Of a stretch of DNA of 54,413 nt, positions 33,246-35,371 are shown one piece after another. This stretch comes from a virus. Where the stretch lies: the IMG/VR virus record IMGVR_UViG_3300030090_000446, positions 1 to 54,413 of that record. One strand, 5' to 3'. The stretch's first letter is position 1, and every line of letters begins with the position of its first letter. Both the position numbers and the translations under genes were made by a program. The notes under the pieces are model-generated. The model did not search any database and had not been told where the DNA came from. It saw only the letters and a list, made by a program, of their open reading frames with translations.

Positions 33246-33414
33246 AAGAAGATATCCTTTTCCTATGAGGGATATTCTAGAACAAGGTAGAAACGGATTT
33301 AGGAGGAACAAAAAAAATCCGTTTCCTCCTACTTCCGATAGAGCAAGGGAATGGCAACGAGGCTACAATAAGGAGTATTATAGATGCCTAGCCAACTTAC
33401 GGCAACACTCGTAG
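33235..33414 (+). CDS. Small basic protein, weakly ribosome-modulation-factor-like
   Basis: 59 aa from a GTG at 33235, chosen because AGGAGG lies 5 nt upstream; it overlaps the RNR stop. ILEQGRNGFRRNKKNPFPPT, RAREWQRGYNKEYYRCLANL has the spacing of Rmf-like proteins: a GR..F segment, an NPF/CPY-like patch, then W..GY. Such proteins bind inactive ribosomes. The match is weak and could be chance. Confidence 0.5.
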   Translation: MAYKRRYPFPMRDILEQGRNGFRRNKKNPFPPTSDRAREWQRGYNKEYYRCLANLRQHS

Positions 33415-34070
33415 ATTCTATGGGTACAGACCTTACTGTAGTTAATGCAGCTAGGGTTTCTTTTAATAAAGAATCAGAGTTCTCTGTCTCAGAGATGGGT
33501 GTATTTCTAAAAGCAAAGGATCAAAAGTTATTAGACTTCCTTGCAAGAAACGATCACTTTACACCCTTTACTCATTGCATGATAACGATGCGAGAGAAAG
33601 TACCTCTCTTTGTAGCTAGACAAAGGTTCAAACATACTGTTGGATTTAGTTATAATGAAGTTAGCAGAAGGTATGTAGATGATCTTCCTGAGTTCTATGC
33701 ACCTACAGAGTGGAGAAAGAAAGCTGATGATAGGAAGCAAGGCTCATCAGATGAAATTGTAAATATAAATCCAACTAACCTTATGATAAACGAATATTTT
33801 CAATCTATTAATAAAGCTAAGTGGACTTATATACATTTACTAGGTATGGATGTTTGTCCTGAACAAGCTAGGATGGTTCTACCTCAGTCTACGTTTACTG
33901 AATACTATGTAACAGGATCTCTGTACGCTTGGGCTAGAGCTTATAATTTACGCAGTGAATTTACTGCACAACAAGAGATACAAGACTTGGCAAGTCAATG
34001 GCATGACATTATATTACCATTGTTTCCTGAAAGTTGGATATCTCTAATAACTAACCTTAAAGGAGGTTAA
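33384..34070 (+). CDS. thyX: Flavin-dependent thymidylate synthase ThyX
   Basis: 228 aa. The signature RxRx7S is RQRFKHTVGFS (Arg79, Arg81, Ser89), continuing YNEVSRRY. VLPQSTFTEYYVTGSLYAWA is the C-terminal dUMP/FAD segment, and HFTPFTHCMIT the N-terminal one. It makes dTMP from dUMP using FAD and methylene-tetrahydrofolate. AGGAG lies 9 nt before the ATG. It follows RNR, giving a dNTP-supply cassette. Confidence 0.93.
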   Translation: MPSQLTATLVDSMGTDLTVVNAARVSFNKESEFSVSEMGVFLKAKDQKLLDFLARNDHFTPFTHCMITMREKVPLFVARQRFKHTVGFSYNEVSRRYVDDLPEFYAPTEWRKKADDRKQGSSDEIVNINPTNLMINEYFQSINKAKWTYIHLLGMDVCPEQARMVLPQSTFTEYYVTGSLYAWARAYNLRSEFTAQQEIQDLASQWHDIILPLFPESWISLITNLKGG

Positions 34071-34071
34071 G

Positions 34072-34392
34072 ATGAGTAAAATACTTAAAGGAGGCTTAAT
34101 TGCTTTATGTTTATTTATGTTCAATGTTTCCGCATCGTATAGCCAAGTACCAGAAAGATCAGGATGCAAAAGTTTGGAAGATGCTAAGACATATATTCAA
34201 GAAAAACACGCCGAACAAATTATATTCCGTGGCATATCAGCCAGAGGACACGTAACATTTATCTTTCTTAATGCTACATCTGGAACCTGGACAGCTGCAA
34301 TCGTAAGACCAGAAGCATCTCAACAGCTATGTTGGGTAGATTCAGGCTTTACAGGTGAACAAATGAAGAAAAAAGACGATATTAGGTGGTAA
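34072..34392 (+). CDS. Secreted hypothetical protein with signal peptide
   Basis: 106 aa. A Lys-containing start, a hydrophobic core (GGLIALCLFMFNVSA) and a likely cleavage after SYS near residue 24 form a clear signal peptide. The mature part has two cysteines (GCKSLEDAKT and QLCWVDSG) that could make a disulphide in the periplasm. AGGAGG precedes the ATG two bases after thyX. No family recognised; superinfection exclusion or envelope modification are guesses. Confidence 0.65.
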   Translation: MSKILKGGLIALCLFMFNVSASYSQVPERSGCKSLEDAKTYIQEKHAEQIIFRGISARGHVTFIFLNATSGTWTAAIVRPEASQQLCWVDSGFTGEQMKKKDDIRW

Positions 34393-34405
34393 TTTAGGGC
34401 AAATC

Positions 34406-34471
34406 CTCTGAGAGCTATTTTAAGCTATGCTACAGAAGATGTAGGTAAAATCTGGACACTACCTACCAGAG
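34406..34471 (+). ncRNA. Candidate structured RNA (three-helix fold)
   Basis: CTCTG (34406-34410) pairs with CAGAG (34467-34471). AGCT (34413-34416) pairs with AGCT (34423-34426). GTAGGTA (34441-34447) pairs perfectly with TACCTAC (34460-34466). The third helix abuts the closing helix with no unpaired base, so they could stack as in riboswitch junctions. No gene covers it and it is followed by a terminator-like element. I match it to no known class. Confidence 0.45.
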
Positions 34472-34492
34472 ACATTGCTTACACCCTCTCCT

Positions 34493-34518
34493 GCCTCATC
34501 CTACGAGGTCATTTTTTT
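34493..34518 (+). terminator. Small terminator-like hairpin with T7 tract
   Basis: GCCTC (34493-34497) pairs with GAGGT (34505-34509) around a 7-nt loop. CA and seven Ts (34512-34518) follow. The stem is short. GGGCA (34397-34401) could instead pair with TGCCT (34492-34496), which would break the stem, so an antiterminator form is conceivable. Confidence 0.45.
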
Positions 34519-34534
34519 AAGAATTGAGAAAAAA

Positions 34535-34810
34535 ATGTGGAAAGACCACAAAGGAATACAAATTATTACCAAGACCCCACTATATACCGTTGATTGGTAT
34601 ATCAAGTGGGTATCGAGTATAATACTAATGCTTTCTACAGTATTAACTGCCAACAACATCTACCCATTGAACCTGTATTTCCATTCAATAGGTATTGGTG
34701 GTTGGTTAATTGTAGGAATGTTATGGAATGATAGAGCATTGATGGTTATAAATGCATTTGCTCTAGCTACACTACTGACAAGTTTATTCAGAATACACTT
34801 GACAATGTAG
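34535..34810 (+). CDS. Small membrane protein with two to three helices
   Basis: 91 aa from the ATG at 34535; a longer frame from a TTG at 34475 would cross the terminator-like hairpin and is rejected. TPLYTVDWYIKWVSSIILML, IGIGGWLIVGMLWNDRALMV and INAFALATLLTSLF are membrane segments. The sequence resembles a family of small marine-phage membrane proteins (I believe DUF6552) of unknown role. Confidence 0.65.
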   Translation: MWKDHKGIQIITKTPLYTVDWYIKWVSSIILMLSTVLTANNIYPLNLYFHSIGIGGWLIVGMLWNDRALMVINAFALATLLTSLFRIHLTM

Positions 34811-35342: not shown

Positions 35343-35371
35343 GGGGGGATTAATTTCCCCCTTTATCTTTT
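35343..35371 (+). terminator. Intrinsic terminator of the plus-strand block
   Basis: GGGGGGA (35343-35349) pairs with the TTCCCCC arm ending at 35361 around a short loop, followed by TTTATCTTTT. It lies between convergent genes and overlaps the end of the minus-strand gene at 35363. The minus strand has no T-tract after the stem, so it acts mainly on plus-strand transcripts. Confidence 0.75.

Follow-up and report, generated by a model that had tools for sequence, protein, structure and literature searches.

What occupies the 142-nt gap (positions 34393-34534) that separates the stop codon of a 106-aa ORF (34072-34392) from the ATG at 34535 of a small downstream gene in an uncultured phage genome? 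The window, i.e., the whole stretch of DNA that was analysed, comprises 54,413 nt of IMG/VR record IMGVR_UViG_3300030090_000446; in it, thyX (33384-34070) precedes the 106-aa gene, which in turn precedes the gap. A sequence-only reading had proposed a switch for the downstream gene at this place, with a three-helix fold, a terminator and an upstream GGGCA that could act as anti-terminator. The gap is indeed more than an ordinary spacer, in that a genuine non-coding element lies in it, which is conserved in sequence and position, ends in a recurrent terminator and lacks demonstrable conserved internal helices. We assign a probability of roughly 0.5 to the reading that this element is a small phage RNA gene (~60 nt), or the 3' end of an RNA, rather than a riboswitch.

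The small hairpin, the 7-bp helix, the terminator stem with its T7 and the GGGCA that had been described are all found in the window sequence (Table 1). Folding of the 142-nt strand gave -33.4 kcal/mol, slightly better than shuffles at a z-score of -1.86, with 10 of 200 shuffles equally good, and this fold taken alone is near chance. The minimum free energy structure does not contain the 7-bp helix; in it, GUAGGUAA pairs with UUGCUUAC around UCUGG/CCAGA.

The 106-aa protein, a profile of it and DNA patterns drawn from the conserved blocks served as queries for homologues, and nhmmer followed. In addition to the window, about 70 IMG/VR contigs (counted by hand) carry the element in 50 distinct full sequences, which comprise types A (window), B, C, D (L180), E and F; a family model called R1 describes the element. 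The alignment has 128 columns, in which column c corresponds to window position 34389+c, and its sole indel is 1 nt in one clade (E2). Representatives of the other types are 61-73% identical to the window overall, and five of the six reach 83-93% over the core (34441-34469), with 69% in L237. Types A and B share 71% of the whole element and 70% of the third codon positions of the neighbouring gene, so that strong constraint is demonstrated only in the core and in some blocks and does not extend to each single base. Unlike the fold, sequence conservation across the ~70 contigs is far beyond chance. No reading frame is common to the family, as at most five of the 50 sequences are open in any of the six frames and E2 carries its 1-nt indel; the possibility that homologues keep a protein frame through the region, raised by the sequence-only reading, is thereby answered. 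Its statement that the locus fits no known class agrees with Rfam, which gave zero matches in the window at the gathering threshold and nothing meaningful at a relaxed E-value. The element is a single copy, and neither a second one nor further promoter boxes were found in the window.

Table 1. Features of the element and its surroundings in window coordinates.
Feature	Position	Strand	Basis or remark
106-aa predicted secreted protein gene, PHROG 25396 (unknown function)	34072..34392	+	usual upstream neighbour of the element
Whole conserved non-coding element, ~128 nt	34390..34518	+	50 distinct homologues on ~70 contigs, near indel-free
Upstream block GGGCAAATC (AGGCnAAATC in most types)	34397..34405	+	conserved; supplies GGGCA, the 5' strand of the proposed anti-terminator
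GGGCA, able to pair with TGCCT (proposed anti-terminator)	34397-34401 / 34492-34496		sequence
4-bp AGCT hairpin (proposed small hairpin)	34413-34426		sequence
Upstream block ATTTTAAG	34417..34424	+	TTTTAA nearly invariant; roughly 41 to 34 nt ahead of the predicted start
Core block GTAGGTAAAATCTGGACACTACCTACCAG, ~29 nt	34441..34469	+	~90% identical to the window in most types
Perfect 7-bp helix GTAGGTA / TACCTAC	34441-34447 / 34460-34466		sequence
-10-like hexamer TAAAAT (family TAWWWT)	34446..34451	+	columns 57-62; putative promoter
Predicted small RNA, ~60 nt, 5' end ACUACCUACC, 3' end at the T-run	34458..34518	+	distance from the -10-like hexamer
Intrinsic terminator GCCTC-ATCCTAC-GAGGT, then CA and T7	34493..34518	+	terminator scan; 5-bp stem GCCTC/GAGGT 34493-34509, T7 at 34512-34518

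The conserved three-helix fold that had been proposed, with covariation as its check, did not emerge from the family. RNAalifold on 28 diverse members returned no consensus pair, and under a tree-based null that keeps the substitutions per branch no pair was significant and no 5-bp stack beat the simulated alignments. These covariation tests were home-made: single pairs and 5-bp stacks were compared with a tree null in the manner of R-scape, the named helices were counted in addition, and power is limited by an effective number of sequences (Neff) of ~10. The small hairpin is retained in 36% of cells and the 7-bp helix is paired in 91%, but the latter shows no double-sided change and is broken in types B and D. 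By RNAalifold, the tree null on pairs and stacks and the named-helix counts, a riboswitch fold is not supported. Single-sequence folding z-scores in the family are mostly negative (about -0.1 to -4.8), and structure may be present in different forms by type; a common fold was not demonstrated.

Among the proposed helices, the GGGCA/TGCCT anti-terminator (columns 8-12/103-107) fares best. It would belong to a regulated terminator, i.e., a riboswitch- or protein-controlled attenuator in which the 5' GGGCA would pair with the left terminator arm and let transcription proceed into the next genes. In favour of such an attenuator, 81% of cells are paired at this helix, with double-sided changes at three pairs, and none of 500 column shuffles was as good as an alternative structure that combines the anti-terminator with an outer helix (52-59/86-93) and an inner hairpin (62-66/77-81). 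However, the column-shuffle control ignores relatedness, the tree-based test gives the alternative structure no support, no stack exceeds the tree-based null, and RNAalifold returned no pair. The anti-terminator is moreover lost in D and E2, where the terminator arm has diverged, and is not significant on the tree at a Neff of ~10.

Genomic context bears on the same alternative. Genes downstream of the element are co-directional in A, most of E and F (~46 contigs), which speaks for an attenuator, but B, C, D, L261 and L235 (~25 contigs) have a convergent gene next, which means that the element there closes the replication operon and that nothing lies downstream to be switched. Even among contigs without a convergent neighbour the downstream gene set varies, and the consistent set expected of a riboswitch leader was not found across the contigs. 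Small membrane-protein genes, which lie downstream of the element in A, are located upstream of it in B (L017, L024, L031, L037). The stop codon of the upstream gene falls inside the element at column 34 in type F and at column 8 in several E members. The element thus moves as a unit among changing neighbours, which counts against a switch dedicated to one gene; we consider a regulated terminator unlikely, and the proposed control of the downstream gene is not supported.

The terminator itself is real. Homologues and the terminator scan bear out the earlier description of a discrete non-coding element that ends in a short stem with T7: the T-run is kept in every type, and a terminator-like hairpin precedes it in 42 of the 50 elements. 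Hairpins are strong in C, D and E2 (L236, L237), with 8-11 bp and at most 2% of shuffles equally good, and their 5' arm is drawn from other columns than in A and E1. Those of A, E1 and F are modest (1-24% of shuffles equally good), and in several B members, L232 and L270 the scan found the hairpin weak or absent. This recurrence is the best evidence that the element acts at the RNA level. A terminator variant, CATCCTCCGAAGCCG, is common to L235 (3335-3462, type E2) and L270 (72-199, type F), which suggests that 3' halves may have been exchanged between types.

A second conserved landmark lies within the core. In the -10-like hexamer, T57 is present in 49 of the 50 sequences and A58 and T62 in all, and the middle three columns hold solely A or T; L261 reads CAAAAT and some E members read TATTTT. 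The invariant positions are the most important ones in -10 boxes. No -35 box lies upstream of TAWWWT, but the boxes GGCAAATC and TTTTAA stand at constant spacing ahead of it. Counting from the hexamer, transcription would start near 34458 and yield an RNA of 60 nt, the first 11 nt of which are on average 79% unpaired in predictions for 22 members.

The part that would be transcribed also occurs on its own. An intergenic match in Microcystis phage Mwe-JY26 (PP438418; 63440-63495; blastn E 6e-5, model E 3e-6) is limited to columns 72/73-128, so that it covers the predicted transcript without the predicted promoter. On the minus strand of PP438418.1 (L179 1494-1557), this stretch repeats the 3' half of the element almost exactly, GCCTCATCCTACGAGGTCG included. 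Mwe-JY26 is a 101-kb phage that is otherwise apparently unrelated, and horizontal transfer of a small RNA module is possible. Palindromic repeats beside the match were noticed by eye, and a pattern search did not find them.

These observations together argue for a small RNA. The locus is intergenic, non-coding and conserved, with a Rho-independent terminator at its 3' end, features expected of a trans-acting small RNA of a phage. It is retained nearly without indels on ~70 contigs; its terminator-like hairpin recurs from varied 5' arms; as a cassette behind differing genes and before co-directional or convergent ones, it is tied to no neighbour; TAWWWT is invariant and the predicted 5' end is open in most members; and the Mwe-JY26 match is confined to the putative RNA part of a family that has no common frame. 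We propose that a short RNA (34458-34518) would be transcribed from a -10 element whose upstream boxes are unusual, both promoter and boundaries being predictions; alternatively, the replication-operon mRNA could release the same 3' piece from its end. In this RNA, the 5' stretch UACCUACC would be unpaired and the 3' terminator hairpin would have the loop AUCCUA, a layout that makes base pairing in trans with a phage or host target the most likely mode of action.

Several findings count against this proposal. Besides the missing -35 box and the CAAAAT and TATTTT variants, TGGAC (columns 63-68), between the -10-like hexamer and the predicted start, equals the core in invariance, more than a bare promoter would account for; the true 5' end may lie further upstream, or a protein may read this stretch. 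Outside the core, conservation between A and B resembles that of third codon positions, and several B terminators are weak or absent. No conserved target was found: complementary 10-mers in the window lie solely inside genes and none is convincing, and duplex energies at start sites, computed without a null, carry no evidence. Complementarity to 16S rRNA positions 785-806 (UGGAC..UACCAG..GGUAUCU in types B and E1) was considered and rejected as not above shuffles.

The element could instead be a site of control at the DNA level, with operator or activator boxes round a promoter or a replication-origin-like function, and the terminator a separate neighbour. Conservation of sequence and not of structure, almost free of indels over 128 nt, would suit such a site, as would the inverted repeat GTAGGTA-N12-TACCTAC that the core places over the -10-like hexamer and the constant spacing of GGCAAATC and ATTTTAAG. 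Yet the left half of the repeat is broken in B and D, the window holds no second such site, and the Mwe-JY26 match is on the transcribed side only; we regard a DNA-level site as improbable. A plain terminator of the replication operon with a vertically inherited flank and no further function would account for the frequent position as the last operon feature before convergent structural genes and for outer parts conserved only like third codon positions, but hardly for a core that lies outside the terminator, is ~90% identical across most types and is retained when neighbouring genes change, and we give it a low probability.

For a small phage RNA, the closest parallels are phage-encoded small regulatory RNAs (reviewed in PMC12197685), likewise short, intergenic, non-coding loci that have an intrinsic terminator and a 5' stretch predicted to be single-stranded; the present candidate differs in having no Rfam match. 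Small RNAs derived from 3'UTRs resemble it in lying directly after a stop codon and ending at an intrinsic terminator; an example is CisR, which comes from the 3'UTR of prtV and inhibits a phage mRNA (PMC13250501), whereas the element described here has a separate -10-like hexamer. The glutamine riboswitch (glnA RNA motif) of the marine phages Melnitz and Mosig (PMC9004378) is also a structured-RNA candidate in marine phages, some of which infect SAR11, but the element has no meaningful Rfam match at gathering or relaxed thresholds and no conserved fold.

The terminase of the window phage is nearest to those of Pelagibacter phage HTVC033P (51%) and Roseobacter CRP phages, the HMO-2011-type group, whose members PMC9038755 describes as dominant and widely spread in the ocean, with ThyX frequent in most subgroups. 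This is the nearest cultured phage group, and the family model did not detect the element in the nine cultured relatives tested, nor in Sinorhizobium phage phiM6. Host copies were absent from samples of 289 genomes (class of a Rhodospirillales MAG) and 146 genomes (phylum of a cyanobacterial MAG), weak negatives given the strict filters, and a 14-base pattern scan of genome contigs gave chance matches only. Our literature search found no paper treating small RNAs together with HMO-2011-type phages. We consider the odds about even that this conserved, terminator-ended element is a locus for a non-coding RNA in marine phages that resemble this group most closely. More tentatively, it may represent either a new family of regulatory short RNAs that would use their conserved 5' UACCUACC on messages of phage or host in the course of infection or a new kind of regulated terminator that would determine if the end of the replication operon is transcribed; as a short-RNA family, it would perhaps be widespread in uncultured marine phages near the HMO-2011 group and common to a Microcystis phage. 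An RNA locus that is conserved, can be aligned and has a defined 5' stretch offers a concrete entry to RNA regulation in HMO-2011-type infections, and the family model is usable for metatranscriptome searches.

Two observations concern the neighbourhood of the element. The 106-aa protein belongs to a conserved family that often ends in W-stop and adjoins the element in most contigs; in its distant relatives (L238-L240, L243, L247, L249, L250, L252-L257, L260, L262, L264-L267) another gene follows directly 3' and the element was not detected in the stretch read beside them, indicating that gene and element are separable. Further downstream in the window, a strong terminator, GGGGGG-ATTAATTT-CCCCC (35343-35362), marks the place where the replication operon truly ends, immediately ahead of the convergent structural genes.
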